Assembly: GCA_021799575.1 (NCBI GenBank)
Contig: JAJZAD010000001.1
Span: forward strand, 1-64,000
DNA from: a bacterium
GTDB lineage: Bacteria; Patescibacteriota; Saccharimonadia; Saccharimonadales; UBA4665
Reading direction: 5' to 3'
Length of the DNA: 64,000 nucleotides
The notes below the pieces were generated by a model that did no database searches, was not told the DNA's origin, and saw only the letters and a list, made by a program, of their open reading frames with translations. The position numbers and the translations under genes were made by a program. Below are positions 33,654 through 63,529 of this stretch, in pieces (position 1 is the first letter of the stretch; every line of letters begins with the position of its first letter).

Positions 33654-33922
33654 GCAAAAACCTACCTATATTTGTTTATATATCTACTCAGGTTGTTTAA
33701 AACCCTTATATAAAACCACAATGGGGTTGTGGTTTTTACTTAAGGCTGTGGTTTTTAATAAATTTTTCACACACTTTAAACTTCAATTAAACACATATAG
33801 AAAGTTTAATTTAACAGTTGTTTTTTATAATTTATACACATTAACCACAGGATTAACTATAAATATAAAGTTAAATACTTAATTTTTATTATTTTTGTAA
33901 CCATGGAAAGGATTTAAATCTC
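33654..33922. other. Candidate replication origin (dnaA-dnaN spacer)
   Basis: The spacer is extremely AT-rich. It holds an exact DnaA box TTATACACA (33832-33840) directly followed by TTAACCACA (33841-33849), with further CCACA/TGTGG elements near 33715, 33728 and 33746. Gene orientation flips on the rpmH/dnaA side. The track ORF at 33646-33882 is a chance frame. Strand-skew analysis would test the assignment. Confidence 0.6.
33712..33736 (+). terminator. Stem-loop after dnaA
   Basis: AAAACCACAA, loop TGGGG, TTGTGGTTTT: ten perfect pairs ending in a T-rich arm, about 60 bp after the dnaA stop. It can act as an intrinsic terminator; its CCACAA/TTGTGG arms also resemble DnaA-site cores. Confidence 0.6.
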
Positions 33923-35014
33923 ATGAAACTCCAAGTCACACAAGAAAATCTAAACCAAGCCTTGAGTTCAATCGGTAGAATCGCTAATAGCCGAAATACT
34001 CTTCCTATACTCTCAAACGTGCTAATCAAAACCTCTAACAACCGGCTTAGTTTAACCGCAACTAACCTGGATATTGCGATAGTACACTACATTGGAGCTA
34101 AAATCAGCGAAGAGGGTGCTATAACCGTACCCGCTAGGTTAATGCAGGATTTCATAGGTAGTTTACCTCAAAGTGTTATTGATCTCGAATTAACCAACAC
34201 AAAACTTAAAATCACCACCGATAAATACCACTCAATAATAAACGGTATAATTGCCGATGATTTTCCGGTAATGCCGACAATTAAAGACGCTAAGAATATA
34301 AAACTTAATAACGGTTTATTAAAAAAAGCCTTAAATCAAACGGTTTTTGCAGCTAGTAGTGATGAGGCTAGACAAGTGTTAACCGGTGTTTATTTACACA
34401 CTAAAGATGATAAGTTGTTTATAGCAGCAACCGACAGTTTTAGATTAGCGGAAAAAGAACTAGGTAAGAATAACCAACAAATTGCTATTTTAATTCCAGC
34501 TACTGCTATGCAGGAACTGTTAAGAGTAACACCAGACCAAGAAGGAGAGGTTGTTATTTCTTATAACGAGCAACAGGTTTTATTCCAGACCGGAGATATA
34601 GAATTAACAGCCAGGCTAATTGAAGGAAATTATCCGGATTACCAAAAACTAATACCCACAATATTTAATTCCTCAATCCAACTTAAAAGAAACGACCTAA
34701 TAAACATAACTAAAGTGTCTAATTTATTCGCTAAAGAAAGCGCCGGTAGTGTGACAATTGAATTAGATGAGAAAACCAATAAATTGAGTATTAACTCTAT
34801 TGCCTCACAAATAGGTGAGAATAACGCCACGGCTGAGGGTAAAGTTATTGGCGGGGGTAGTATTACTATTAACTCACGTTACCTACTAGATGTCCTTTCG
34901 GTTTTAAATGGTGACGAAGTTTACTTCGGTTTCAATGGTAAACTTGAACCAACCATCATAAAAGACCCCAAAGACCCGAGCTATAAACACATAATCATGC
35001 CTTTAAAAAGTTAA
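33923..35014 (+). CDS. dnaN: DNA polymerase III beta sliding clamp
   Basis: The protein (363 aa) has the three-domain clamp layout, with RIANSRNTLPILSNVLI near the start, LTGVYLHTKDDKLFIAATDSFRLA in the middle and HIIMPLKS at the C-terminus (the usual ...MPMR/K end). It tethers polymerase to DNA. An SD AAAGGA precedes the ATG. It is 3 bp upstream of recF. Confidence 0.97.
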   Translation: MKLQVTQENLNQALSSIGRIANSRNTLPILSNVLIKTSNNRLSLTATNLDIAIVHYIGAKISEEGAITVPARLMQDFIGSLPQSVIDLELTNTKLKITTDKYHSIINGIIADDFPVMPTIKDAKNIKLNNGLLKKALNQTVFAASSDEARQVLTGVYLHTKDDKLFIAATDSFRLAEKELGKNNQQIAILIPATAMQELLRVTPDQEGEVVISYNEQQVLFQTGDIELTARLIEGNYPDYQKLIPTIFNSSIQLKRNDLINITKVSNLFAKESAGSVTIELDEKTNKLSINSIASQIGENNATAEGKVIGGGSITINSRYLLDVLSVLNGDEVYFGFNGKLEPTIIKDPKDPSYKHIIMPLKS

Positions 35015-35017
35015 ACC

Positions 35018-36052
35018 ATGATTGCCGAAATCCGGCTACAACAATTCCGATCCTACCCAGATAAAACCTTTAAACTCTCATCTGGTTTAAATGTGGTTGT
35101 CGGACCGAACGCAAGCGGTAAAACCAATCTATTAGAAGCGATTATGGTTATATGTACAGGTAATTCATTTAGAGCTCCAGACAATGAACTGGTTATGTAT
35201 GGTAAACAGTGGTCTAGAATTGATGCGAAAACCTCCCAAGGCAACAGAACACTTAAACTAACTACAACCAACAAAGAGTTTCTATTAGAAGGTAAATCAC
35301 ACAAAAACCTAAACCATAATACCCAAATACCATTAGTGTTATTTGAGCCCTACCACTTATTAATGATTTCTGGCGCACCGGAATTAAGAAGAAACTACCT
35401 AGACGGAGTCTTGGATTCCATTCAACCAGACTATAAAAAGATCCGGAAAAATTACCACAGAACCCTTAGGCAGAGAAACACACTACTAAAAAAGGGACAT
35501 ATTAACAATAATGAACTTTTCCCTTGGAATGTACGGTTGAGTCAAATAGGAGGTATTATAGCTAACTCAAGAGCAAAACTAATAACCAAACTAAATGAAA
35601 CCCTAACCGAGTCATATCAAAAAATTTCAGATGGTAAAGAGAAGATTACATTAAAGTATAAAACCAACATAGATCTAAGTAATTATGAGAGCCAACTGGT
35701 CAGGAAATTAGAGCAAACCATAGATCTCGATTTGATCAAAGGATTCACTATGTACGGACCACACAGAGAAGACATGAAGATACTAGTTAATAACAAAGAC
35801 CCAAACCTTTTTTATTCTAGGGGAGAAACCCGAACACTTGTAGTAGCGCTTAAAATAAGCGAACTAAAAACCGTATCTTTAATCAAAAAAGACCCTATTA
35901 TTTTATTGGATGATGTATTCAGTGAACTTGATTCCAAGCGCCAACAAGCTCTAGCTGCTTTTTTATCAACAAACACCCAATCTTTAATAACAACCACGGA
36001 AATAAACAATAATAACTTACATAAAAAAGGAGTAATTATTAAAACCACTTAG
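35018..36052 (+). CDS. recF: DNA replication and repair protein RecF
   Basis: The SMC-like ATPase (344 aa) has Walker A GPNASGKTN, the RecF signature LLDDVFSELDSKRQ and GPHRED before it. It loads recombinase at gaps with RecO/RecR. It forms the conserved dnaA-dnaN-recF run. Confidence 0.95.
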   Translation: MIAEIRLQQFRSYPDKTFKLSSGLNVVVGPNASGKTNLLEAIMVICTGNSFRAPDNELVMYGKQWSRIDAKTSQGNRTLKLTTTNKEFLLEGKSHKNLNHNTQIPLVLFEPYHLLMISGAPELRRNYLDGVLDSIQPDYKKIRKNYHRTLRQRNTLLKKGHINNNELFPWNVRLSQIGGIIANSRAKLITKLNETLTESYQKISDGKEKITLKYKTNIDLSNYESQLVRKLEQTIDLDLIKGFTMYGPHREDMKILVNNKDPNLFYSRGETRTLVVALKISELKTVSLIKKDPIILLDDVFSELDSKRQQALAAFLSTNTQSLITTTEINNNNLHKKGVIIKTT

Positions 36053-36075: not shown

Positions 36076-36768
36076 TTAAATTGGCTGGTTAGTAGCTGAA
36101 TTAATTAGTTGGTAAGAACTAAGATTATGTTGAGACAACCATTGTTTAGCGTTATTTATAGCTGCATTTTCAGCGCTATTGCCTTGAGTCGTGTCCCAAT
36201 AAGACGGCACATAGGTAAAATCAATACTTGGCGGGGAAGTACTATTAGAAATAGTTAATTGATAGTCTGTTCCTTCATATGGCAAATAAGACAAACCAGA
36301 TAAAGAAGGCTCTAAACTAGATTGAATACTTAGTATTTGGTTTTGTTGGTTTTGTGAAATTTGAGACCAAGTTACATATATGGGTTTAAAGTTTATTGTG
36401 GTTGTAGATGTAGCACTACTTTGAGAAGTTACAGAAATGTTAATAAAATAATTCTTACTCGCTTTCAATGGAGTCGCTAGTTGTAGGGACAACATTCTGT
36501 TTTTAACCACGGATTTATAAATTAAACCCTTGGAACCACTCACAGCTAACCTACTACTCCTAAGCGGTTGATTATATGAGACGTCTATTGTTGGGGTTAA
36601 AGTATTTATGGACGAAGGATTGGGATTTATAGAAACAACATCAAAAGTTTGGCGACTAAACAACCATAAAACAATCGCCATAATCAACACAATAGTTATT
36701 CCCAACACAAACAGAAACTTTCTGTTATGAAGTGCAACACTTAAACTCTGATTAGTTTGGGGAAACAT
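36076..36768 (-). CDS. Membrane-anchored protein with SbsA-type Ig-like domain
   Basis: One N-terminal membrane segment (FLFVLGITIVLIMAIVLWL) precedes an extracellular beta-rich domain with INPNPSSINTLTPTIDVSYNQPL, the opening of Big_5/SbsA-like Ig folds. The C-terminal part (PYEGTDYQLTIS...NAKQWLSQHNL) is found with T4SS genes in related genomes as far as I recall (not checked). It overlaps the CHAP protein gene by 17 bp, so it belongs to the T4SS unit. Confidence 0.7.
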   Translation of the reverse strand: MFPQTNQSLSVALHNRKFLFVLGITIVLIMAIVLWLFSRQTFDVVSINPNPSSINTLTPTIDVSYNQPLRSSRLAVSGSKGLIYKSVVKNRMLSLQLATPLKASKNYFINISVTSQSSATSTTTINFKPIYVTWSQISQNQQNQILSIQSSLEPSLSGLSYLPYEGTDYQLTISNSTSPPSIDFTYVPSYWDTTQGNSAENAAINNAKQWLSQHNLSSYQLINSATNQPI

Positions 36769-37999
36769 ATCCTATTATTCCATCTGATGTGGATGGCTCC
36801 GGTCCGACTTCACTTACAACACTGGTGTCAAGCGTCCAATAACCAACCACCGGGTTTGTCTGGTCGCCACCTATTAATGTTACATTTCCGCTTGAATCTA
36901 CCGACACCACAATATTCACATGCCCCATCCAATCATATCCATTACCTGAATGTATAGCTAGATCTCCAGGTTGAGGAGTATATGTGCCGCTTGGATGCCA
37001 AGAAAACCCCTGCCCGCTTAGCCCCAAGTTGTATATCTCGTCCACCGCAGGAAGATCCCAACCGTCATTACCACCACTGAACGGATAACCCGCCTGTTTA
37101 TAAACCCAACTGACAAAATCAGCGCACCATTCTTCGTCAGCACCGTTATAGTCATAGATGGGGGCTCCAGGAGGCTGAACCGAACCGATTTGCCAGCAAC
37201 CTAACTGTTGTTCGGCTATAGCCACAATCCGCTGCCTCAAACTGGAAGCAGAAATATTGGAGTCACAACTAAGAGCGACTGCCGCTGTAGCATTTCCATA
37301 ACTTACAGTCACACTATTGCCAGCTGCTGCAATCATGGCATTAATTTCATTGGTTAGATAACTTATGTAACCACTAGGATTATTACCCTCTCCCGCGGGA
37401 GCGTATTTATTAACAAACTCGGGTATAGTATTAATGCCTTGGTCAATATAACCAACTTTCAAGAATTCTTGTTCATCAGTGTTTGGGTCACTGACACTTG
37501 CCAACCACGAGGGCCACGCATACCAATCGGTTGTCTTGTTTGTTCCTGCAGCTGTAGCTGCTACAAAGGGTTGTCCCGAAGCAGCAGTACGTCCGAACGT
37601 ATTGTATGAGCCTGGCGGCGGCGTTACAGTTCCTAAACCTTGTTCGTGCCAACCTATAGCAACCACCAAAAAAGGGTTAACATTCTCAGCAATAGACCCG
37701 CTAACGATTGCCTGCGCCATCTTTGTACCATCGAATGGAGAAGAACTACTAAGGTTTTGTATAAAGTTCGCTATTGCGGCAACAAGTGCATTTTCATTAT
37801 TAACAGTAATACACGACATTGATACACAGATACCGTTGTAAGGAGAGCTTACGCCACTATTATTATTGTTTTGTGAACCGTTATAGTAAATACTATCGTT
37901 ATACAGGCTAAATAAATCTTGGTTGGAAAGAGCGGAAACCCGTCCAAAGTAAAAGACGTTAACAATAGTTACCAAAGCTATTACTACAACGCGCTTCAT
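36752..37999 (-). CDS. Secreted CHAP-domain cell-wall hydrolase, T4SS-associated
   Basis: After a signal peptide the middle part (MAQAIVSGSIAENVNPFLVVAIGWHEQG) resembles a lysozyme/glucosaminidase-like domain. The C-terminal CHAP domain carries the catalytic Cys in EEWCADFVSWVYKQAG and the His in GHVNIVV. It is a VirB1-like enzyme that opens peptidoglycan for the secretion channel. It overlaps both neighbouring T4SS-region genes. Confidence 0.85.
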   Translation of the reverse strand: MKRVVVIALVTIVNVFYFGRVSALSNQDLFSLYNDSIYYNGSQNNNNSGVSSPYNGICVSMSCITVNNENALVAAIANFIQNLSSSSPFDGTKMAQAIVSGSIAENVNPFLVVAIGWHEQGLGTVTPPPGSYNTFGRTAASGQPFVAATAAGTNKTTDWYAWPSWLASVSDPNTDEQEFLKVGYIDQGINTIPEFVNKYAPAGEGNNPSGYISYLTNEINAMIAAAGNSVTVSYGNATAAVALSCDSNISASSLRQRIVAIAEQQLGCWQIGSVQPPGAPIYDYNGADEEWCADFVSWVYKQAGYPFSGGNDGWDLPAVDEIYNLGLSGQGFSWHPSGTYTPQPGDLAIHSGNGYDWMGHVNIVVSVDSSGNVTLIGGDQTNPVVGYWTLDTSVVSEVGPEPSTSDGIIGYVSPN

Positions 38000-45020: not shown

Positions 45021-46949
45021 CTATGAACTGGGGGTAAGTCGATTTTCCAGGTCTATAGTTCCGGCTACAACTTCTGATCCGTTATTCTGTAAATCAATAT
45101 TACTTTCAATAACATTAGTGCCGGTTGTTTTAGGGTTAGTTGTTATTAAAGATGTTTCAGTAGGGCTGGCAATGACCTGTATGTGAACGTGGTTTTGTCC
45201 GGCAAAGAACAATCCCTGTCCAACGGGGAACTGACTTAAACGTTTCTTTTCCTCAGAAGTCAGTTTGAACACGTCGGTTAAAACGTCAACCGCTGAGGTT
45301 GACTGCTTCATTAAGAACTGCATTGAGGCGTTGGCTACGATTGCCCGCCCCATCCGGCTGCCCATAAAGTCCTCAACATCCTGAGTTACGGTAGTTATGC
45401 CGAGCCCGTATTTTCTGGCTCGTTTGGCCACACTAAACAAAAAGTTTGCAGAATCTTCATATTTCATTAACTGCCAAGCTTCGTCCACGATCAAGATACG
45501 TTTTTTCAGGTCAGTTTTAGTTTTATTCCAGATGTAATTTAGAACTATATACATCGCCACTGGACGCAATTCGTCTTCCAGGTCGCGGATATTAAACACT
45601 ACCATCGGGTTATTAATGTCAACGTTTGATTGCTGACTGAATATCCCAGCAAAGGTGCCGGAGGTGTATTTACGCAGTCGCTGCGCCAGTTGGGGCCCCG
45701 TACCGCCCATGTGCAGCAAAGTATCATACAAATCGTTTATAGTCGGCGGCACACCAGTGTGTGTCAAAGGGTCGTTAGTTATCCCCACCTTGGCGTAGGT
45801 GTCGATCAGTGCCGTGTCCAAATCGGATTCCTCGGCCGGTGTAAGTGCTGGCATAAGTGTCGCGTTACCTCCGACTAGCTGGGCTTGTGCACCACCCATC
45901 ATTAACCTAAGCAAGCCGTGCAAAGTTATTATATTGGACCGCAGTGCATTGTCGGCTTCCTCACTGTCTATAACCTTCGGCAAATCAAATGGATTAATCC
46001 TAACCGAACTGTTTAGACTTAGACGCACATAGGCTCCGCCTACCGCTTCGCACAAACGTTGGTATTCATTCTCCGGATCAACAATAAAAATTTCCGTTCC
46101 CATCATCATGGAACGTAACGCTTCAAGCTTTACACTAAAAGACTTTCCAGCTCCCGACTTGGCAAATACTACGGAATTACCGTTTTCCAAACTAAAACGA
46201 TCGAAAATGACTAATCCGGAATTATGCATGTTTATGCCATATAAAATACCGTTGTCCTGACTTAAGTCCGCCGAAGTAAACGGAAAGCTAGTGCTTAATG
46301 CTCCGGTACTCATATTGCGCCTGATTTGTAACTGATCTGTTAATTGCGGCACAGTGGAATTAAAGGCTTGCTCCTGTTGAGATGTAGCTGGTTTAGAATA
46401 TACCAGTTGCTGCCCAAGCAAAGACTCGACTTTATTAGACACGAACTCCAATTCATCCTTGGATTGGGCATAAATCGTGAAATATAAGGCAAACCGAAAA
46501 AAACGCTCTTCGCCGACCTGTAACTTGTCTCTTATTTCCTCTGCATCCATAACCGCCGCCTGTTTACCCGGGTCTCGAACCTTGCCCTTTTCGGCATCCA
46601 GTTGCAGCCCCGCCTCGAGCTGAGTTACTTTTTTACGCAGATTTTCCAATACTACCTGACTTTCAACCGGGTATATGTACATGCTGATATCCATAACTTC
46701 GTCCAGGTTCACCATACTGCTTAACCAACCGGTATATACCTGTCTGGGATACCCATATACATAAAAGGTACGAGCAAAACGGGTACCGATCTGAAAGTAG
46801 GAACTGTTAAACTCTACCGAACTCGGCGCTATAAAGTCTCTAAGTGCGGTGATACCCTTCTGGAATGCGGCATTAACCTGATTAGCTTCTTGAGCTTGTT
46901 GGGCTTGAGCGATTGCTATGGGATCGGTTGCTGGTTTTCTAAAGGCCAT
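45021..46949 (-). CDS. virB4: VirB4-type T4SS ATPase
   Basis: The protein (642 aa) has Walker A FAKSGAGKSFSVK, Walker B RILIVDEAWQLM and the TraC/VirB4 segment AKRARKYGLGITTVTQDVEDF. It powers substrate transfer or pilus assembly at the inner membrane. The usual N-terminal CagE/TrbE-like part is in the separate upstream ORF 3 bp away, so the ATPase appears split or two-subunit. Confidence 0.92.
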   Translation of the reverse strand: MAFRKPATDPIAIAQAQQAQEANQVNAAFQKGITALRDFIAPSSVEFNSSYFQIGTRFARTFYVYGYPRQVYTGWLSSMVNLDEVMDISMYIYPVESQVVLENLRKKVTQLEAGLQLDAEKGKVRDPGKQAAVMDAEEIRDKLQVGEERFFRFALYFTIYAQSKDELEFVSNKVESLLGQQLVYSKPATSQQEQAFNSTVPQLTDQLQIRRNMSTGALSTSFPFTSADLSQDNGILYGINMHNSGLVIFDRFSLENGNSVVFAKSGAGKSFSVKLEALRSMMMGTEIFIVDPENEYQRLCEAVGGAYVRLSLNSSVRINPFDLPKVIDSEEADNALRSNIITLHGLLRLMMGGAQAQLVGGNATLMPALTPAEESDLDTALIDTYAKVGITNDPLTHTGVPPTINDLYDTLLHMGGTGPQLAQRLRKYTSGTFAGIFSQQSNVDINNPMVVFNIRDLEDELRPVAMYIVLNYIWNKTKTDLKKRILIVDEAWQLMKYEDSANFLFSVAKRARKYGLGITTVTQDVEDFMGSRMGRAIVANASMQFLMKQSTSAVDVLTDVFKLTSEEKKRLSQFPVGQGLFFAGQNHVHIQVIASPTETSLITTNPKTTGTNVIESNIDLQNNGSEVVAGTIDLENRLTPSS

Positions 46950-47823: not shown

Positions 47824-48765
47824 TTAATGATGTAGGTTAATCACTACTTCGTTGTTATCGTTTGTTGTTCTCGCTTCCTTAGCCAGAGTCTGAATACTTA
47901 GCCCTGGATTATTAAGGGCGAAATTAAGTTTAGCATGATCTATAGGCGGTGTTTGATCGGTTTTAGGTTTGCTATTAACTTTATGTTGTGCCGCAGAATG
48001 TGTAGCTATGGTGTGGAGATTAGATCTTGCAAGATTGGAAGCGGATATATTGTGTTTAAGAACCTCGCTTAATGCTTTCTCTTTGGTTTTATTAGTATAC
48101 GACTGGCCGTCTGAGCTATTATCTAAACTGTTTAACAAGGAAACTAAATCCTGTCGGTTTGCTGTAGAAGTTCTAGATATGATATCCGCGATATGTACCG
48201 ATTGCGGGTTTTGGTCGTCCAATATGTCTTCTTCGGGAGTTACGTTATAATCTGGTACGGGGCTAGGTATAGTCCCCAAACCTATCAACCGGTCGGAATC
48301 TGGAGTATAGATTTGCGCTTCTTCAGGCGTCGCTTCCAAGTTCTTTATCGCCCACCCCCTGGTATCCAAAGTCAAAGCCAGAGCTTGCAATCTGCTTTTG
48401 ACCTCCGTTTCAGACAAGCCGTTGGTTAGATTATGCTCAAGTTTTTTAGGAGCGGTGATGGTTACTAGTTCTTTAACACCGCTCTGGCTCCAGATACGCC
48501 TTCGCGGCTTTAACATAAATTGCAGCCTGGCCAATGCCCAAACTTCAGTCGGCTGGTCACGTTTAAACGGAAACGCAAAAAACGTAGCTAAAAGTGCAAG
48601 CGGTAGAAACAAAACCAGCAGTACTTCTACGTGTTTGGTAATCAGGATAAAACAAACATAATAAAAAAAGGCTGCTATCATCCCGTAAATAAATTGTCTT
48701 AGCGTTAAAGGACCGAGAATATGGTCCTCTGCCTCAATATCTTGGATCAGTTTGTATGTTGCCAT
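47824..48765 (-). CDS. PrgI-family T4SS membrane protein
   Basis: The N-terminus DIEAEDHILGPLTLRQFIYGM followed by two close membrane helices (to about residue 70) is the PrgI family, a VirB3-like partner found next to VirB4 in Gram-positive T4SS. The remaining ~230 residues are a cytoplasmic extension with no recognised fold. A TATACT box ends 8 bp before the ATG and no SD is present, so the operon mRNA probably starts leaderless. Confidence 0.87.
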   Translation of the reverse strand: MATYKLIQDIEAEDHILGPLTLRQFIYGMIAAFFYYVCFILITKHVEVLLVLFLPLALLATFFAFPFKRDQPTEVWALARLQFMLKPRRRIWSQSGVKELVTITAPKKLEHNLTNGLSETEVKSRLQALALTLDTRGWAIKNLEATPEEAQIYTPDSDRLIGLGTIPSPVPDYNVTPEEDILDDQNPQSVHIADIISRTSTANRQDLVSLLNSLDNSSDGQSYTNKTKEKALSEVLKHNISASNLARSNLHTIATHSAAQHKVNSKPKTDQTPPIDHAKLNFALNNPGLSIQTLAKEARTTNDNNEVVINLHH

Positions 48766-48883: not shown

Positions 48884-49372
48884 ATGTATAAAATCAAAAA
48901 GATTGTTAAATACCTAGCAATTATGCTGCTTGCATTATCTGGTGTTATGATTGTTGCTCCAGCAGCTTCCGCTCTTCCGTTAGGCATCAATAATTTTGCA
49001 ACTTACCAATGCGGGAGCGAGGGAACCGGAAGCAACAAAGTTAAAAGCGATAAAGTAATAACCAGCATCGACTTCGGATGTTATGGCAACCAATGTGTTT
49101 CTAATAGTAATAGCGCTTATTGTCAAACTCCACACAATCCAATTATTGACCTAATGTTTGCCATTATTCGTTTTCTGTCCGACGGTGTTGGGTTAGTGAT
49201 CATTGCCTCATTAATCATAGCCGGCATTCAATATACCTTTTCGGCAGGAGAGCCTCAAGCGGTGGCTAACGCCACTAAACGCATTCATAGTTCAGCGCTA
49301 GCTTTGTTGCTATTTATTTTTGCCTATGCCTTACTTAACTTTGTAATTCCTTACGGAGTTTTTGGACAATGA
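48884..49372 (+). CDS. VirB2/TrbC-like pilin paralogue 1
   Basis: A signal peptide of about 31 residues (ending ASA) precedes a Cys-containing loop and two membrane helices flanking YTFSAGEPQAVANATKR, the pilin-type turn. It is the most divergent of the six tandem paralogues. SD GGAAA lies 7 bp before the ATG. It opens a plus-strand operon divergent from PrgI. VirB2-like proteins polymerise into T4SS pili. Confidence 0.75.
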   Translation: MYKIKKIVKYLAIMLLALSGVMIVAPAASALPLGINNFATYQCGSEGTGSNKVKSDKVITSIDFGCYGNQCVSNSNSAYCQTPHNPIIDLMFAIIRFLSDGVGLVIIASLIIAGIQYTFSAGEPQAVANATKRIHSSALALLLFIFAYALLNFVIPYGVFGQ

Positions 49373-49854
49373 GTATATTATCTTTTGCTGCAAAACGGAT
49401 ATCTGTTATAAGTTTTGTTATTTTACTGACCACTTTTATTATGCCTATTATGCCGGGATTGGTTTATGCCAGTAGTTCGTCAGGTAGCGGTTCGTGTAGC
49501 CTCCCTTCACGCACCTTTTTCGGAATACCGACATGGTATGAATACCTGCAAGGGCAGCCAACACCACCTACAACCGGTTCAACCGGATCCAGCACGTCAT
49601 GCCAACCCAAGTTCGATAGTCTGAGCGATGTTTGGTTAGTAGTTGCAGCGGTGATTGACATGCTGTTGTATGTAGGCGGTATAGGAGCAGTTGTCATGGT
49701 TATTTACGGCGGAGTCAAGTTTACTACCAGTATGGGTAGTCCGGAGGCTACCGCTTCAGCCAGAAAGACGATAATCTACTCAATTACCGGACTTATAATT
49801 GCCATATCTGCGTCTTTTCTGGTGACCTTTATAGCTAAAAGTGTAGGAGCATAA
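49369..49854 (+). CDS. VirB2/TrbC-like pilin paralogue 2
   Basis: It overlaps paralogue 1 by 4 bp (ATGA). A signal peptide, a Ser/Gly/Thr-rich loop with two cysteines, and two helices around YGGVKFTTSMGSPEATASARKT match the pilin layout. The extracellular loop is longer than in paralogues 3 and 4. Confidence 0.8.
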   Translation: MSILSFAAKRISVISFVILLTTFIMPIMPGLVYASSSSGSGSCSLPSRTFFGIPTWYEYLQGQPTPPTTGSTGSSTSCQPKFDSLSDVWLVVAAVIDMLLYVGGIGAVVMVIYGGVKFTTSMGSPEATASARKTIIYSITGLIIAISASFLVTFIAKSVGA

Positions 49855-49858
49855 ACTT

Positions 49859-50182
49859 ATGCATTTGCTGATACGCATTTTTGCTGCCTGTAGCGGAAGC
49901 CAGCTTTACGCTGGAGCTAACGAGAGTTGTTATAGCACCAACCTACCTACGGTTAGCGCCTCATCATCTACTCTGCACACGATGTTGCAAATTTTCTTTG
50001 CCATATTAGGTGCGCTGGCGGTTCTGTTTGTCGTGATCGGCGGATTAAGATATACCGCATCCGGAGGGGATCCTAAGAGTATGCAAGAGGCGAAGAACAC
50101 CATTCTCTATGCCGTTGTAGGACTAGTTGTCGCTATTTTAGCCGAAGTAATAGTAACTTTCGTGCTGGGGTATGTTAAGTGA
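49859..50182 (+). CDS. VirB2/TrbC-like pilin paralogue 3
   Basis: The protein is 107 aa with a minimal loop and two helices around GGLRYTASGGDPKSMQEAKNT. The N-terminus (IRIFAACSGSQLYAGANESC) is only weakly signal-like. The next gene starts GTG inside its stop codon. Confidence 0.75.
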   Translation: MHLLIRIFAACSGSQLYAGANESCYSTNLPTVSASSSTLHTMLQIFFAILGALAVLFVVIGGLRYTASGGDPKSMQEAKNTILYAVVGLVVAILAEVIVTFVLGYVK

Positions 50183-50568
50183 GGCGGGCAATGTTGGTCA
50201 TCGGGCTATTAGTTCTATTTATAGCCAGTCTTATGTCAACGACTATCCCCTCTGCGGAAGCCAGCTTTATACCGGCGTGTGGCCCTACCGGCATAGCCAA
50301 GCAAACTAGTGTGTGTCATGACGTACAAAGCCAGTCAGGTAATCCGGTAATTAGGATAATTAAAGACGGCATAGACATTTTATCCTTTGTTACTGGAGTT
50401 GTAGCAGTCATCATGATTATTGTCAGCGGTATCCGCTTTATTGTATCCGGCGGAGACTCTAACGCGGTAGCAGGTGCTAAAAAAAGCTTAATCGGTGCAT
50501 TGATCGGAATCGTAGTTGTAGTGCTGGCCCAATCAATAGTAATATTTGTATTGGATAAAATAAAATAG
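50179..50568 (+). CDS. VirB2/TrbC-like pilin paralogue 4
   Basis: The start GTG overlaps the previous stop (GTGA). A signal peptide and two helices surround SGIRFIVSGGDSNAVAGAKKS. A 29-bp stretch in the first helix is identical to paralogue 5, pointing to recent duplication. Confidence 0.8.
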   Translation: MRRAMLVIGLLVLFIASLMSTTIPSAEASFIPACGPTGIAKQTSVCHDVQSQSGNPVIRIIKDGIDILSFVTGVVAVIMIIVSGIRFIVSGGDSNAVAGAKKSLIGALIGIVVVVLAQSIVIFVLDKIK

Positions 50569-50573
50569 GTAAA

Positions 50574-51110
50574 ATGAAAAAAAACCTTTTACTATTACTT
50601 CCGCTGCTGGTCTCGTTTGTGTCAGCTACCTCCTATGCTTATACGTATCAAGCGTCAGGTAATATAACTACTCAGGGGCAAAACTACCAGTCGTCTTACC
50701 GGGACACTACCATGACTTTAGCCTCAAGCCAACCTCCATCGAGCGGTACGAGTTATTCATCCGCCGAAAACAGCGCCTGCAGCGGTATATCCCAACTGAA
50801 TTTAAATGGTTCACAGAATTGTACTTCGGGCTCAGTATCATTAACCAAGGTCATCAGAACCGTTATTCAAATTTTAAGTCTAGTCCTGGGCGCACTTGCC
50901 GTCATCATGATTATTGTCAGCGGTATCCGTTTTGCCACTTCCGGAGGCGATGCGAATAGCGTAAGTGCCGCTAAAAAGACATTGATCTATGCTCTAATCG
51001 GCTTAGTGTTAGCCTTTTTAGCCCAGGTTATCGTACGTCTGACCTTGTCTACGGCCAACGGAGTTACTAGCAGTATCCTACCAATATTTATGAGCAACAT
51101 CTTTTTATGA
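50574..51110 (+). CDS. VirB2/TrbC-like pilin paralogue 5
   Basis: The 178-aa protein has a signal peptide, a Ser/Gln-rich loop of about 80 residues with two cysteines, and two helices around SGIRFATSGGDANSVSAAKKT. The longer loop would be surface-exposed. Confidence 0.8.
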   Translation: MKKNLLLLLPLLVSFVSATSYAYTYQASGNITTQGQNYQSSYRDTTMTLASSQPPSSGTSYSSAENSACSGISQLNLNGSQNCTSGSVSLTKVIRTVIQILSLVLGALAVIMIIVSGIRFATSGGDANSVSAAKKTLIYALIGLVLAFLAQVIVRLTLSTANGVTSSILPIFMSNIFL

Positions 51111-51176
51111 TTGATTTTATACTGATGCGTGATAATATTAAGTCTAAGGAATAAAAAGAAAGGTATAGAGAATCGA

Positions 51177-51650
51177 ATGCGCCAAAAAATAAAACAACAC
51201 CTGGCTATTATACTGAGCATGATAGCACTTATATTTCCTATGTCAGTGCCCATAACCGTGTACGCTGATTCTTGCGGCAATGCACTTCAGTCCGGCATAA
51301 ACACAGGAACTAGCACTGGGGGCGTTAGTGTGTGTAGTACAGGCAGCTCTGCATCCCTTGCGGATACGGTTAAGAACATCGCTAAATTAGCAATCAATAT
51401 ATTGTCAATTATAGTTGGAGCGGCCGCGGTCATCATGCTAATTTACGGAGCATTCAAGTACATAACTTCCGGAGGGGAGAGTAATAGCGTATCATCCGCT
51501 AAGAATACTCTACTCTACGCAATCATAGGGCTAGTAATTGTTTTCCTAGCGCAAGTTATTGTCCACTTAGTATTAAATACTGCAAATTCTGTAGTTACTC
51601 AGACTTATACAGCACCCCAAGGTGTAATCATTCTCCATGTTTTTAGGTGA
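51177..51650 (+). CDS. VirB2/TrbC-like pilin paralogue 6
   Basis: The ATG at 51177 is preferred over the track GTG at 51129 because it begins a clean signal peptide (QHLAIILSMIALIFPMSVP...) after AAAGAAAGG. Two helices surround YGAFKYITSGGESNSVSSAKNT. It is the last gene before a terminator. Confidence 0.8.
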   Translation: MRQKIKQHLAIILSMIALIFPMSVPITVYADSCGNALQSGINTGTSTGGVSVCSTGSSASLADTVKNIAKLAINILSIIVGAAAVIMLIYGAFKYITSGGESNSVSSAKNTLLYAIIGLVIVFLAQVIVHLVLNTANSVVTQTYTAPQGVIILHVFR

Positions 51651-56984: not shown

Positions 56985-57731
56985 GATGGACTATGACTTT
57001 AGCCTTCTCTCGAAGTATCTACTAAACTCAAGACCATTGTCTGCTTGAACCATAGCAAACTTAAAGCCAAACTTAGCTTCAGCTCTCAGCACGACACCTG
57101 CGGCAATAACAGGACCTATACGGTCGTAACACTCGGCATAGGTCATCCTGGTATATATGTCTATGACCGTATAGACATATCTTCTTCTCTTGGTAATAGG
57201 GCATATGTAGTAGACGGTATCTGTTTGTATTAGCTCACCAGGAGCAGTCACGACCGGCCTCTTTGGATTATCTGGCCTAACTCGCTTCTTCCTGCCATTA
57301 ACCTCATGATGACGTTTTAAGATTCTATTGGACGCTACTAACACTAATTCTTATGCCATCTAGATGAACTAGATGCCACCAAATTACCTCGCCACAACGT
57401 TTGAGTGTCCGTCTCTGAGCTCTAGTACACGCTAAACAATTTCTGAACTAACAGCCCTAGGACTGACTCGTGGCCTAGAGCTAAGTGTAGGTATCCTCCA
57501 GGTACACCTAAGTAGATGGTTTGCTTGACTATACGTACGATTGGGTCGATTAGGGTTGTCGAACTGTACATTCTCGTTCAGCTTGCTCCATTTAGTCTTC
57601 CATCTGTAGATAGTAGACCGATTAACACCACACTTATTGGCTACTACTTGGACGGATAAACCCTCCATTAGTAGTAGCTTCATAGCTAAAGCTCTCGCTT
57701 TAGGTAGATTAGGGTTGATAGAATAAGCCAT
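56985..57731 (-). pseudogene. IS481-family transposase remnant
   Basis: The N-terminal HTH (GLSVQVVANKCGVNRSTIYRW) is followed by frame breaks near 57435 and 57350. The rve domain continues with PGELIQTDTVYYICPITKRR and FAMVQADNGLEFSRYFERRL, containing two of the DDE acidic residues. The C-terminal part with the last acidic residue is missing where the recombinase tail begins. Confidence 0.85.
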
Positions 57732-57891: not shown

Positions 57892-58476
57892 AATCGATTT
57901 GAGTGTAGAGGCTTCAATCGAGGATGTACCTTAACGGTAATGGAGTAACTAGAACACCTACGGTGTTAATCTGTTACGCACTCTAGTAGTCGAACGCCTT
58001 ACAGCGTTCCGGCAAAGAGACAGGTTACAGGAATGAGCCCCTGTTCTATCTGTTAACTTGCGATGTTGCCCCGACAAAGGGTCGGGACATTTCCGCGCTT
58101 TATCAGGCATGATAAGGAGTTAGCAAACAGGCTTGTCAACCGCTTATGCAGCGGAGCACTAACAGATGTACCTTAGGTGATACTAGCTATCTAATACCAT
58201 TTACCTCTATAAGATATGCAATGAATTCAGTCAGAGGTGCCACCTCAAGACTGGTAAGAGTGCCGATAGAAGGCTTATCTGTTATTCAGATGAGACATCA
58301 ATTGGGCATTCTTGCTCAAAGAATGTCCGTACATTGACAAGAGAAGATAGTTCCTCAAGATGGGATACCGATGTAGCTCGTGCAAGCTGCACCGATACCC
58401 CATCTTGAGAGAGAATGCTGTGCTCAAGCGAACGGATCATCCGTTCACAGGGGAGTCACGAAGACGCTTAGTCTTC
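57892..58476 (+). ncRNA. Candidate large structured RNA or long structured leader
   Basis: At least ten helices can be drawn in order. They include TCGATT/AATCGA, AACACC/GGTGTT (57953-57967), GAACGC/GCGTTC (57992-58009), ACAGG/CCTGT (58027-58044), CCCGAC/GTCGGG (58070-58086), and GTTAG/CTAAC enclosing CCGC/GCGG (58119-58163). Further on are GCATTCTT/AAGAATGT (58306-58326), a 56-nt hairpin starting CTCAAGATGGG (58354-58409), GAACGGATCATCCGTTC (58430-58446) and GAAGAC/GTCTTC (58460-58476) just before the SD. The 63-aa frame inside has no recognised features. No known RNA family is recognised. Confidence 0.5.
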
Positions 58477-58490
58477 AAAAAGGAGCCATC

Positions 58491-58841
58491 ATGGCCACCA
58501 TCCTGAACCTCACCCCGCACGCCATCAACCTGCTGGACGCCGAGGGCAACACCCTCGCCGTCTTCCCGCCCACCGGCACCATCGCCCGGGCGGCACAGCA
58601 GGATCAGCCGGTCGGCAAGGTCGAATCCGACGGTGTTGTCGTAGAGGTCGTACAGACCACCTACGGCGAGCCCGCCGACCTGCCGGCACAAGCCGAGGAC
58701 ACGTTCTACGTGGTGAGCATCCTCACCGCGCAGGCGGCCAAGGCCTACGGCCGGGACACGAGCGACTTGCTCGTGACCTCCGGACCCGTGCGGGACGAGA
58801 CCGGCCGGATCATCGGTTGCCGACAGTTCGCTGTCGTGTAG
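58491..58841 (+). CDS. Small GC-rich island protein (116 aa)
   Basis: The track extends to 58380, but the ATG at 58491 has SD AGGAG six bases upstream and starts the coding-like part (MATILNLTPHAINLLDAEGN). Similar NLTPH openings occur in short phage or plasmid proteins as far as I recall. The sequence is acidic and beta-rich with no known function. Its third-codon positions are mostly G/C, unlike the chromosomal genes here, indicating recent acquisition. Confidence 0.75.
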   Translation: MATILNLTPHAINLLDAEGNTLAVFPPTGTIARAAQQDQPVGKVESDGVVVEVVQTTYGEPADLPAQAEDTFYVVSILTAQAAKAYGRDTSDLLVTSGPVRDETGRIIGCRQFAVV

Positions 58842-58857
58842 CCGACCTGGTTGGGTT

Positions 58858-58916
58858 GGGGCGGTTGGACGAAACTTCGGTTTCGGTGGCACAAATGTGT
58901 CTTTACCAGCCGCCCC
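58858..58916 (+). ncRNA. Three-way-junction RNA element
   Basis: GGGGCGGTTGG (58858-58868) pairs with CCAGCCGCCCC (58906-58916) over 11 bp with one G-U pair. It encloses CGAAAC-TTCG-GTTTCG (a UUCG tetraloop hairpin) and GGCAC-AAAT-GTGTC. It lies 16 bp after the 116-aa gene and 51 bp before the hammerhead. It may protect or shape the 3' end of that mRNA. It matches no family I know. Confidence 0.55.
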
Positions 58917-58967
58917 ATGGCACCCCTAACCCCAGCATCTCCCGCTCACTCATCTATCTCTTGTCAA

Positions 58968-59023
58968 TAATCGTTCTGCGGGTGTAGCCCGCACTGATGA
59001 GTCCAAAAGGACGAAAACGATTA
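58968..59023 (+). ncRNA. Hammerhead ribozyme (type III), self-cleaving
   Basis: All core parts are present in order. Stem III 5' strand is TAATCGT, then U-C (cleavage after C at 58976), stem I TGCGGG-TGTAG-CCCGCA, CTGATGA, stem II GTCC-AAAA-GGAC, GAAA, and stem III 3' strand ACGATTA. Stem III has seven perfect pairs plus the A-U closing the core. The start codon of the kinase gene is two bases further on, and the only SD-like sequence (AAGGA) lies inside stem II. Cleavage would leave the downstream mRNA with a 5'-hydroxyl. Confidence 0.9.
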
Positions 59024-59024
59024 C

Positions 59025-59516
59025 ATGATATATCTAGAACAACAACTTGCGACTTTGCCCGAACCATACATTGTTATGGGAGTCGGCATACCCGGCAGTG
59101 GTAAATCCACCGCGCTTGAAGTTGTTGCTCAGCACCTTGAAATAGCCCGAATCTGTCCCGATGATATTCGGGAGGAAATGACTGGTTCAGCTGCCGACCA
59201 ATCGGTCAATGCTGAAGCGTGGGCAGAAGCCTACCGGCGTGTTGCCGTCAGCTTGCAGCTAGGGCATTCCGCCATCATAGATGGCACTCACACCGAGGCA
59301 TGGCGTCGTCCAAAGCAAGTTGCACAGTACCGTGAGCATGGCGCAGCAGCAGTTGCTGCGGTGGTTTTTGATACGCCACTCGCTGTTGCTAAGCGGCGCA
59401 ACCTTAGCCGGGAGCGCGTAGTGCCGGAATATGCACTTGATAAATTGCACACAGCCTTGCAGAAGGAGCCGGTTAGCCATAAAGAAGGGTTTGACGCAAT
59501 ATACGTTCTCCGTTAG
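59025..59516 (+). CDS. Polynucleotide-kinase-like P-loop kinase
   Basis: The protein (163 aa) has Walker A GVGIPGSGKST at about residues 19-29, CPDDIREEM (the DD.R acceptor site of T4 Pnk-type kinases), a DGTHTEAWRR segment and a lid region VFDTPLAVAKRRNLSRERVVPE. This order follows the 5'-hydroxyl polynucleotide kinase part of T4 Pnk. The wider AAA_33 family also contains other small kinases. The gene has no other SD than the one in hammerhead stem II, so ribozyme folding or cleavage should affect its translation. Confidence 0.8.
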   Translation: MIYLEQQLATLPEPYIVMGVGIPGSGKSTALEVVAQHLEIARICPDDIREEMTGSAADQSVNAEAWAEAYRRVAVSLQLGHSAIIDGTHTEAWRRPKQVAQYREHGAAAVAAVVFDTPLAVAKRRNLSRERVVPEYALDKLHTALQKEPVSHKEGFDAIYVLR

Positions 59517-59631
59517 GGCATGACGGTTCACAAGCGGGAAAAAAGTTTCCTGGTTGTGAGCTTTCATCCGTAAGGTTGGTAGCTCAGAACATTTACAAAA
59601 GCTTTGGAGTAGTTTTTGAGAGGCGTTGTCA

Positions 59632-59832
59632 TCAAGCGACGTAAAAGTCCTCTACACTCACCTTTACTCCGGTAAAGTTACACTTTTGCTTGATGAGTCT
59701 GTCATAGACTGCATAAGCTTTTGCGATGGGTACTGTGTTTATACGCAGTTCCCGGGCAAAGGCTGATGCTTTGACTGGCTCTCGAAAGAGAAACTACTCA
59801 TATAAAGCTATCGGTTCTTTGGTAGGTATGTG
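59632..59832 (-). pseudogene. Possible remnant of a small DNA-binding protein gene
   Basis: A reverse-strand frame reads KEPIALYE, stop, FLFREPVKASAFARELRINT, VPIAKAYAVYDRLIKQKCNF and ends EDFYVA. It looks protein-like and helix-turn-helix-like, but has no start and one internal stop. The rest of 59517-59882 holds a hairpin GGAAA/TTTCC near 59540 and nothing else. Confidence 0.3.
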
Positions 59833-59882
59833 TCATGGGTTCAGATAACCCGCCGACTTAAAGGGATTGTCCCTCATACCGC

Positions 59883-59901
59883 GTTTCCCTAAGGAGGAAA
59901 C
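59883..59901 (+). promoter_or_regulatory. SD-sequestering hairpin
   Basis: GTTTCC pairs with GGAAAC, which directly precedes the ATG at 59902; the SD GGAGG lies in the loop and 3' arm. Folding would hide the ribosome binding site. Confidence 0.5.
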
Positions 59902-61481
59902 ATGTCCAAGTCCATCACCATCGACGCAACCAAGCGGGGCATCCCGGCTATCTGGGAAACCGGTGGCGGTCTGACGTCCGGTGGCTCGGCGACAATCATT
60001 GCCAAGGCTGACGGCACAAAGCCCCGTGCGGTCTACGTCCGCACCCGAGGTCACCTGTCGAGAGGTCCCCACGCACTGGTCTGTGTGCACGAGGGATTCT
60101 ACCTCGTCCACGCTGGCGTCGGCCGCGGTGTTCGCCAATCGGCGCGCATCGAGCGCATCGTCAAGACGTCCGTCAAGGACATTCACGGTGAGAAGTTCGA
60201 GGCGACCGCTGAGGTTGAGGTGGTAAACACCTTCAGCCGTGGCGAGTGGGACAAGCCGCTCGAAGCCAAGTTCGAGGCCGCCGTTGAGGCTGCCTTCGGC
60301 AAGGCATTGACGTATCACTGTCGCAGGGCGGTGTACATCGACACGAGCGAGCGTTCCGCTGAGACGCCCGAGCAGCGCAAGCACCGCGAAGCCGAAATGG
60401 CCAAGCAGGACGGCGAGCGAGCTCGTCTGCGTGCCGACAAGGCAGCCGCTGACGCACAGGCGAAAGCCGAAGCAGAAGCTGCCAGCCGTGAGGCCAAACA
60501 GAACGGACTCGGTGCTCGTCTCGAAGCCGCTCAGGTTCGGCTGAACGCGCTGCAGTCGAGCAACCCGACCACCAGCTACTCCAAGCTGGAGCTGGGCGAG
60601 TCGTACTTCGTCTTCGGATGGGGCAACAAGCTCTACACCGAGGAGAACGTGCGGAACGTCGAGCACAACGTCGGGTACTGGGAGGAGCAGGTCGTCGAGT
60701 AGCTGCGCAAGCAGATGGCTCGGGCCGAGTTCCAGCCCCAGCTCGAGGCGTTCATCCTGCGTGTCGAAAACCTCGGACTGACTCTGAGCTTCGGCGAGGA
60801 TAAGGTCAACTGGGAGGGTGGCAGCTACTACGGTAGCTTCACCTATACCCAGGAGGGGCTCGAGTCCTTCAAATCCGACCTCATCCGCAAGGAGGAGGAA
60901 GCGGCTGCAGCTGCTAAGGCTTCGGCCGAAGCGGAGGCAGAGGTGCTCGGACTGCCCCAGAACATCCGTATCTGGAAGCGCACTGGTGGCGCAACCGGCT
61001 GTGGAATGGGCTGGGTCATCACGCCTGACGGTTTCGACCGCGAGCGTGACGGGCTCGAGAACGACAACCCGCGCAGGGCTGCTCGCTACGATGAGGGCAA
61101 CCTCGTCCTGGAAGCAGGTACTGCCGGGTGAACTCGTTCTAGCTTGGCGCAAGGCCTTCACGGCTGCCGAGCACGAGTTCGAGGTCGTTCACATCCCATC
61201 CGAGGGCGTGACCGAGGCACAGCTCGAGCGTGTCGCCGAAATCCAGCAGGAGCTGGAAGACACTTGGGCTGGCCGTCGCGGTCTGGCTTCGGGTCTCCCG
61301 AGTCCGGCTGTTGGCCGTGGTTGGGGGTCTTGGTGACTTCGAGACGCCTCCTGCACCGCCGCAGGTGTTAGAGACCAGTGAGTCTGACTCGTTTGACGAC
61401 GACACCCCGGCACCCGCCGAACACGTCAACATGGAGAACGCCTTGCAGCGTCTCCAGGACAAGTTCGGTAAGAACCGATAA
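59902..61481 (+). pseudogene. Large GC-rich island gene, interrupted (amber codon and two frameshifts)
   Basis: The frame from 59902 (MSKSITIDATKRGIP...) ends WEEQVVE at a TAG (60700-60702), then continues in the same frame with LRKQMARAEFQPQLEAF to 61131. Coding continues in the next frame (LPGELVLAWRKAF, VTEAQLERVAEIQQELE) and then in the third (GDFETPPAPPQVLE...LQRLQDKFGKNR) to 61481. Codon bias stays uniform across the breaks. The whole would be about 525 residues, with an Ala/Glu/Lys-rich coiled-coil region around residues 150-215. Function unknown. It may be freshly broken, mis-sequenced or recoded. Confidence 0.6.
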
Positions 61482-61710
61482 CAGCTACCCTTGCACCCAG
61501 CAAGGTAAAAACTCTCGCAGGTAACTGTGAGCATGAAGCCGTCAGGCTTTGTGAGGGAATGCTCGACGCGGTACGAGCTTGAGTGTACATTCCATTGCAA
61601 GATGGAACATGGCACAATACCGACTGGCCTCTCTCGAGCCCGGATTTTGACCAGTTCAAGGTCAGAATAAGTCGAGAGACACAAGCCCCAACCAACGCTC
61701 ACCAGCTCAG
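61482..61710 (+). other. Stem-loop-rich spacer before the recombinase
   Basis: Several helices are visible: CCTTG/CAAGG (61487-61503), GAGCAT/ATGCTC enclosing AAGCC/GGCTT, CTCG/CGAG, TTCCAT/ATGGAA, and CTCTCGA/TCGAGAG enclosing TGACC/GGTCA. CCCCAACCA (about 61686) is inverted at TGGTTGGGG (about 61735), bracketing the recombinase SD. The region could be an attachment site, a leader or another structured RNA. Confidence 0.45.
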
Positions 61711-61737
61711 GTGAATTCCGAAAGGAGTAAAGTTTGG

Positions 61738-63159
61738 TTGGGGTGTTTTCTTTGGTTTTACGCTGGACTTTGTAGGCAGTCGCGGTACCTTGTTCTTGAT
61801 ATGGATCAACCACCGATACAGTTCACCAATACCGCACCGCATTTGCTGCCTGAAGAACAAAATGGCAAACCTATCCAACTACCGGAAAGCAAAGCAGCTC
61901 GGGTCAATTATTGTCTCTATGCCCGTAAATCAAGTGAAGATGACGAACGCCAAGCTTTGTCCATTGACTCGCAGATCAAGGAAATGGCATTGCAGGCGGA
62001 GGCTCAAAGCCTGCGGGTTACTGAAATTAGAAAAGAAAGCCATTCGGCCAAGGATTCCGGTAAACGACCGGTCTTCAACCAGTTAATCGCTGATATTAAG
62101 AACGGCTTATTTAATGGTCTACTAGCCTGGAACGCATCGCGGCTGTCGCGCTGCGGTGGCGACTTAGGGTCAATCATCGACCTTATGGACCAAGGTAAGC
62201 TAGTGGAAATCAGAACTCATGGCCAGGTATTCACCAATTCGCCAAATGACAAGTTCTTGCTCATGATCTTATGCTCCCAAGCCAAATTCGAGAACGACAA
62301 CTGGGGTATTAATGTCAAACGGGGCATGAAAACCAAGTGCGAACTGGGTTTTCGGCCAAACATGACGCCACTTGGTTACGTTAACGACTATCGTTCAGGC
62401 AAAGGCCAAAAGAAAGTGTTCGTCGACAAGAAGCGAGCGCCTGTTATTAAGGAAGCCTTTGAGAAAGTAGCTTCCGGTGCTCCCGGCAGGGATATTTATA
62501 ACTGGTTCGCCGAAGTTAGCTTTAAGACTAAGCGAGGTAAGCTAGTCACACTTAGTATGGCTTACCGAATGCTCAATAATCCGTATTACTGCGGTATCTT
62601 CGAGTTTCCAGTCGGCAGCGGCAAATGGTACAAAGGTTTATATAAGCCGATTATTAACCGTGAGCTATTCGATGCCGTACAGCAAAAGATGGTGGTAGCA
62701 CCAAAAAGCAAGCCGGGCACCAAGCAATTTGACTATACCAAGCTTCTAACCTGTGGTGGCTGTGGCTCGGGCATTACGGCTCAGGAAAAATATAAGCAAA
62801 CCAAGAAGCATGGTCGGGTACGGTATGTGTATTATCATTGCACCCAATCCAGAAACTTTGACTGCCCCCAACCATACCTGCGGGAAGAAAAGCTGACGGA
62901 AGTTTTTATCCGCCTGCTAGCGGGCATAACGGTACAAGAAATTCAGAATAAAGATACTCTACGGACTGAGTTGGATAGGTTTAGACGATTATCCGCAGCA
63001 GTACTAGGCGATGCCCAGAGTGATGGACTGGGCATAGATTTGCATAACTTTGCGAAGTACATTCTGACGCAAGGCACCAGAGCCGAGAAACGAGCCCTAA
63101 TAGCCTGCCTCGAGCAAACGATTTACCTGAAGAACAAAGAAGTTACGACCGAAATCTAA
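61738..63159 (+). CDS. Large serine recombinase
   Basis: The catalytic domain has YCLYARKSSEDDERQALSID with the active Ser, then LLAWNASRLSRCGGDLGSII. A recombinase domain (GYVNDYRSGKGQKKVFVD, LNNPYYCGIF) and a zinc ribbon (LLTCGGCGSGITAQEK...YYHC) follow. It matches integrase-type serine recombinases, which move islands and phages. The TTG at 61738 is favoured because AAAGGAG sits ten bases upstream; GTG 61711 lies before that SD, and ATG 61801 has none. A terminator follows. It is intact, unlike the two recombinase tails nearby. Confidence 0.92.
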   Translation: MGCFLWFYAGLCRQSRYLVLDMDQPPIQFTNTAPHLLPEEQNGKPIQLPESKAARVNYCLYARKSSEDDERQALSIDSQIKEMALQAEAQSLRVTEIRKESHSAKDSGKRPVFNQLIADIKNGLFNGLLAWNASRLSRCGGDLGSIIDLMDQGKLVEIRTHGQVFTNSPNDKFLLMILCSQAKFENDNWGINVKRGMKTKCELGFRPNMTPLGYVNDYRSGKGQKKVFVDKKRAPVIKEAFEKVASGAPGRDIYNWFAEVSFKTKRGKLVTLSMAYRMLNNPYYCGIFEFPVGSGKWYKGLYKPIINRELFDAVQQKMVVAPKSKPGTKQFDYTKLLTCGGCGSGITAQEKYKQTKKHGRVRYVYYHCTQSRNFDCPQPYLREEKLTEVFIRLLAGITVQEIQNKDTLRTELDRFRRLSAAVLGDAQSDGLGIDLHNFAKYILTQGTRAEKRALIACLEQTIYLKNKEVTTEI

Positions 63160-63173
63160 GCCAAAAACAGATG

Positions 63174-63193
63174 ATCAGCCACAAGAGGCTGAT
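63174..63193 (+). terminator. Terminator after the recombinase
   Basis: ATCAGCC, loop ACAAGA, GGCTGAT, followed by TGTTCTTT. Confidence 0.75.
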
Positions 63194-63269
63194 TGTTCTT
63201 TGAGCCAGAATCAAAAAGCTCCATAATTTTATGCATTCAAGGAGTATTTAAGCAGTTCCAGTTTCTAGC

Positions 63270-63360
<91 letters not shown>

Positions 63361-63452
63361 ATTAACGTTTAAGATGTCTACATCATTGTAAGCTCTTAAT
63401 TTCCATTGTGGAAGCTATCATTAAAAGATGTTAAACTAACCTGTTGAAATGT

Positions 63453-63529
63453 GCGCGTGTAGCTCAGCTGGATAGAGCGTTGGCTTGCGGAGCCAAAGGT
63501 CGTAGGTTCGAATCCTGCCACGCGTACCA
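63453..63529 (+). tRNA. tRNA-Arg(GCG)
   Basis: A complete cloverleaf with encoded CCA; anticodon loop TTGCGGA between TTGGC and GCCAA gives GCG, decoding CGC and, by wobble, CGU. Most bacteria use ACG (read as ICG) instead. The acceptor ends in a G-U pair. Confidence 0.93.

Follow-up and report, generated by a model that had tools for sequence, protein, structure and literature searches.

Why should a single type IV secretion system (T4SS) locus carry six pilin-like genes in a row? The question is raised by 64,000 nucleotides of a Saccharimonadales genome (family-level lineage UBA4665; contig JAJZAD010000001.1 of assembly GCA_021799575.1, positions 1 to 64,000), referred to here as the window. 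Six plus-strand open reading frames (ORFs) lie in tandem at 48884-51650, exactly the span in which the original prediction had placed six VirB2-like pilin paralogues, with composite pili or antigenic variation on an epibiont as their possible uses. This article describes the array, its conservation among relatives and the readings that these data favor.

The pilin array and its secretion system

The six genes, named p1 to p6 by position, are as follows.

48884-49372 (+), p1: pilin-family protein of 162 aa with a signal-peptide-like N-terminus; PF18895 29.4 bits; class kept across the order
49369-49854 (+), p2: pilin-family protein of 161 aa; PF18895 41.7 bits; private ectodomain motif FFGIPTWYEYL with Cys on both sides
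49859-50182 (+), p3: short pilin-family protein of 107 aa without a clear signal peptide; PF18895 58.4 bits
50179-50568 (+), p4: pilin-family protein of 129 aa; GTG start codon that overlaps the stop codon of p3; PF18895 35.7 bits
50574-51110 (+), p5: pilin-family protein of 178 aa; PF18895 48.6 bits and TrbC/VirB2 29.7 bits
51129-51650 (+), p6: pilin-family protein of 173 aa as listed, 157 aa from the likely start ATG 51177; PF18895 48.1 bits

The genes overlap or nearly touch, as had been claimed: p1 and p2, like p3 and p4, overlap by 4 nt, and the p2/p3 and p4/p5 gaps measure 4 and 5 nt. The p6 start is better placed at ATG 51177, since a close relative (L059) has the same MRQKIK there, and the p5-p6 gap is therefore about 66 nt, next to a median of 72 nt in 46 relatives. 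Core identity among the six is only 0.20-0.55. The turn GG-(R/K)-xx-SGGD/E, described as common to all of them, holds in part: the strict SGGD/E occurs in p3-p6, whereas p1 has SAGEP and p2 SMGSP, and GG precedes R/K in p2 and p3 only.

All six proteins exceed the curated cut-off of the Pfam family T4SS_pilin (PF18895; 29.4-58.4 bits vs 26.6). The TrbC/VirB2 family (PF04956) is passed by p5 alone, p4 and p6 being sub-threshold and p1-p3 without a listed match. An AlphaFold2 (AF2) model of p6 has a helix at residues 2-39 followed by a helical hairpin (77-113/118-156; mean pLDDT 73), and that of a natural p1-p2 fusion has two hairpins (mean pLDDT 78, pTM 0.56); the latter was built from an alignment without single p1 proteins, which MAFFT had placed onto the p2 half. 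Foldseek searches of the PDB with both models, a kind of search that is uninformative for long helical hairpins, gave no significant match, so that the VirB2 fold assignment rests on family profiles and not on structure search. PDB sequence searches returned chance matches only, with no pilin among them, and a plasmid search a single distant pilin-like match.

The surroundings agree with this assignment.

47824-48765 (-): VirB3/PrgI-like protein; PF12666 45.9 bits
46953-47810 (-): TrsD-like, VirB4 N-terminal-like protein; NCBIfam TrsD E 2e-8, below cut-off
45021-46949 (-): VirB4-like ATPase; PF19044 98.3 bits
41797-44901 (-): extended VirB6-like polytopic protein of 1034 aa; weak NCBIfam Mbov_0396/MMCAP2_0566 matches and cluster position
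36752-37999 (-): CHAP-domain cell-wall hydrolase with a VirB1-like role; PF05257 49.7 bits
51739-52227 (-): Hsp20; PF00011; convergent with the array, which it flanks in most relatives by synteny

The array is thus divergent from virB3/trsD/virB4/virB6, convergent on hsp20 and downstream of dnaA-dnaN-recF. Large membrane proteins are also encoded on the minus strand of the cluster, together with the CHAP hydrolase and the VirB6-like gene. As in Patescibacterial (FATA-like) T4SS, VirB4, TrsD, PrgI/VirB3 and VirB6 genes, the last recognized by a weak match and position, adjoin the pilins. Neither a PF03432 relaxase nor a PF02534 coupling protein, the two families searched for as marks of a conjugative T4SS, was found in the source genome (805 kb, 92% complete). 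By family profiles, synteny and literature, the six genes are pilin-family genes of a T4SS, of a kind already published, as the original prediction had proposed. The nearest VirB4 loci, up to 91% identical, belong to Candidatus Saccharibacteria MAGs, and an epibiont lifestyle of the source organism would follow by analogy with relatives.

Other features of the window and its genome were recorded in passing. The genes dnaA (32304), dnaN (33923) and a RecF/SMC-type gene (35018), at 32304-36052, directly adjoin the T4SS cluster, an arrangement that agrees with the proximity to the origin reported earlier for Patescibacterial T4SS in a survey (PMC12102498). Broken transposase-like ORFs lie at 56991-57731 (-). 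The region 58000-63529 has a G+C content of 53-59% vs about 42% around it, holds a phage-type polynucleotide kinase and an ORF (61711-63159) that by eye resembles a resolvase/serine recombinase, and has tRNA-Ser/tRNA-Arg at its edge, which together suggests an integrated element. The same genome carries a second, compact T4SS (G000 contig C15, locus L047:4643-9600, minus strand) with overlapping or closely packed genes for a 113-aa pilin, PrgI, a TraC/VirB4-N-like protein, VirB4, a CHAP hydrolase and a 434-aa protein in which an N-terminal PF18895 domain is followed by TrbL/VirB6; several other members of the genus and further families have also retained this system. A VirB6 with a pilin-like N-terminus is already known for CedA/VirB6 (PMC9905601).

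Conservation of array size and gene position

Most near-complete genomes of the order and class have 5-9 PF18895 matches. Among 60 non-redundant arrays with virB3/4/6 attached, exactly six ORFs occur in 46, five in nine and seven in five. Five of the nine five-ORF arrays are explained by p1-p2 fusions and one by a p2-p3 fusion, and the other three lie near the end of the sequence examined; the additional genes of the seven-ORF arrays belong to the p5/p6 class. Differences in array size are due mainly to extra copies of this class.

A FastTree phylogeny of a 76-column core from 43 clean, complete six-gene arrays of the order groups the sequences by array position rather than genome: the copies of p1, of p2 and of p3 each form a single clade (43/43), p4 falls in one clade in 42 of 43 arrays, and p5 and p6 form one class (86/86). 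Position requires 14 label changes on this tree vs a shuffled mean of about 166, and only 17 of 258 pilins have a paralogue in their own array that is as close as, or closer than, the best sequence from elsewhere. A more careful maximum-likelihood tree of 16 genomes recovers p1 (100/100), p2 (100/98) and p3 (95/97); on its few columns p4-p6 do not resolve, and p4, p5 and p6 are not each of single origin. Class monophyly in both trees ruled out a lineage-specific expansion of p1-p3.

Seven further loci from families f21-f23, f25 and f26 have the order 1-2-3-4 followed by two to five p5/6-class genes; these overlap in part with the reference set, because L176 and L130 are apparently one and the same array. 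In f18, f20 and other orders the reference clades leave out most positions after p1, p1 being kept in part in f18 and the other orders, and full orthology is therefore claimed for the sampled families only. Across these, the comparison shows at least p1-p3 to be ancient, separate parts whose order is fixed.

The positions also differ in features of their own. A motif Cys...W[YFW]x[YFW]L...Cys ahead of the first transmembrane helix (TM1) is present in 50 of 60 p2 proteins and in none of 303 other pilins. A signal-like hydrophobic N-terminal part, scored by a simple hydropathy threshold and not by a dedicated predictor, occurs in 97-100% of p1, p4 and p5 onwards, in 49% of p2 and in 16% of p3. 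Natural fusions join p1 to p2 (L097, L108, L133, L138, L141) and p2 to p3 (L069, L044), and ORFs that encode two pilin domains are common in family f18 (noted in L158, L159, L162, L164, L160 and L161). These same f18 loci often have one pilin gene on the far side of hsp20, encoded by the other strand. The fusions show co-translation, not contact. Taken together, the position-specific features and the fusions are difficult to reconcile with interchangeable pilins.

Sequence exchange and ectodomain variation

A 29-bp identity between p4 and p5, pointed out at the outset, was confirmed.

50407-50435 (+): stretch in the TM1 core of p4, identical to 50901-50929
50901-50929 (+): stretch in the TM1 core of p5, identical to 50407-50435

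It is not due to shared amino acids, because none of 300 protein-preserving codon shuffles of the two genes reached 29 bp (mean 10, maximum 20). With shared stretches counted on genomic positions, which excludes the ORF overlaps at p1/p2 and p3/p4, identical stretches of at least 20 bp occur within 17 of 51 arrays, nearly all of them in the transmembrane cores of p4-p6; the 29 bp of the window are of the same kind. Tail duplicates of L105 share up to 240 bp, and p4 and p5 of L154 have 63 bp in common; the L154 p4 is also the sole one outside its clade, a placement consistent with conversion. Since the shared stretches are mostly in p4-p6 cores, conversion would homogenize the core and not reshuffle ectodomains.

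Variation itself is strong, in line with the claim of widely differing exposed loops, but it sits in the N-terminal ectodomains and the C-terminal tails of p5/p6 and not between the helices. Mean ectodomain identity among members of the genus is 0.24-0.31 (p1, p2, p4-p6) vs 0.54-0.75 in the cores. Tail duplicates in L105 and L075 have identical cores and different ectodomains, and such pairs would still permit the p5/p6 tail to diversify. Synonymous sites were saturated in the dN/dS comparison of the window with its nearest relative. No silent cassettes and no invertible promoter were seen.

A proposed composite machine and its alternatives

Position orthology, the p2 motif, the usual lack of a p3 signal, the fusions and the core-located exchange support a composite machine and disfavor cassette-type antigenic variation. 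The array is the pilin part of a chromosomal, relaxase-less Saccharimonadales T4SS, and its six proteins probably act as non-interchangeable subunits of one machine; we infer this non-interchangeability from sequence patterns. A more specific version, an obligate hetero-pilus or pilus-like channel of four or more distinct pilin classes, each with a fixed role, and with 1:1 coupling of p1, p2 and p3, is put forward tentatively, and it would differ from known VirB2-type pili, which consist of one pilin.

The array could instead supply alternative or antigenically variable pilins, used one or a few at a time to change the surface exposed to different hosts, as has been proposed for Patescibacteria in the survey (PMC12102498), and for the VirB2 families of Bartonella and Anaplasma. 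The divergent ectodomains suit this idea, as does the p5/p6 class, which reaches three to five copies, among which identical cores can carry different ectodomains. Positions 1-3, however, are ancient single-copy clades, the nearest relative of a pilin is seldom its own neighbor, identical stretches keep mainly to p4-p6 cores, overlapping and close-packed genes suggest co-expression, and neither cassettes nor an invertible promoter were seen. Antigenic variation, which calls for recombination between copies that reshuffles exposed regions, is thus improbable here; a residual form of it, fast ectodomain drift and p5/p6 tail duplication, may apply. Retention of redundant paralogues for gene dosage could appeal to the single fold family of all six, but the low core identity within the window and the position signatures kept across families make it very hard to credit.

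In a nearer alternative, p1-p3 would stay permanently in the membrane as two-helix subunits of the channel base, and p4-p6 only would form a pilus. It would account for the lack of a hydrophobic signal-like N-terminal part in 84% of p3 and about half of p2, for the restriction of TrbC/VirB2 matches to the later positions, for the fact that in the sampled families the head genes p1-p3 alone take part in fusions and for the pilin domain at the VirB6 N-terminus in the second T4SS of the genome. All six proteins belong to PF18895, however, with p3 scoring best, and this division of roles is considered rather unlikely. Composite pili, the other use originally envisaged, are favored by position orthology, the two kinds of natural fusion and the retained position-specific features, the filament itself being a prediction.

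In the composite machine, p4-p6 would be exported by Sec and make up most of a short pilus or surface channel, with their variable N-termini facing the host. The p1-p3 proteins may be specialized head or base subunits that either cap the filament or connect it to the VirB6/VirB4 platform; p2 would contribute its conserved Cys-bounded loop and p3 would probably enter the membrane without signal cleavage. Extraction of the subunits would be driven by VirB4, as in VirB2 pili, whose pilins reside in the membrane before assembly; for those systems VirB4 has been suggested to lever the pilins out, and VirB6 to serve as the base on which they assemble (PMC9259494).

The closest published likeness, by description, is the cluster SEML1_0006-0019 of Ca. 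Southlakia epibionticum ML1, a different, cultivated organism, which also has six divergent VirB2-like pilins in a T4SS cluster (PMC10633639, PMC12857230) with, as in the window, no relaxase or coupling protein recognized; its six-pilin array is essential (PMC10633639). The Patescibacteria survey reports arrays of 2-11 tandem PF18895 genes near virB4 with a mean identity of 25% and stresses variability and host adaptation; position orthology, fusions and the p2 motif are not described in the parts consulted (PMC12102498). Conjugative VirB2/TraA pilins and the archaeal CedA1/TedC pili share the two-helix pilin in a VirB4/VirB6-type system, but are one-pilin polymers with lipid, and the reports on them mention neither six classes nor long N-terminal ectodomains (PMC9259494, PMC9905601). 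Bartonella and Anaplasma likewise have tandem VirB2 paralogues in a host-dependent bacterium, taken as antigenic or host variation (as cited in PMC12102498), whereas the head positions here are fixed orthologues.

The kind of array is therefore already published, and what is new is the evidence for fixed, non-interchangeable positions. Position orthology weakens the published suggestion that the array serves mainly variability, and positions held by conserved orthologues make the question "why six?" testable gene by gene in a genetically tractable relative.
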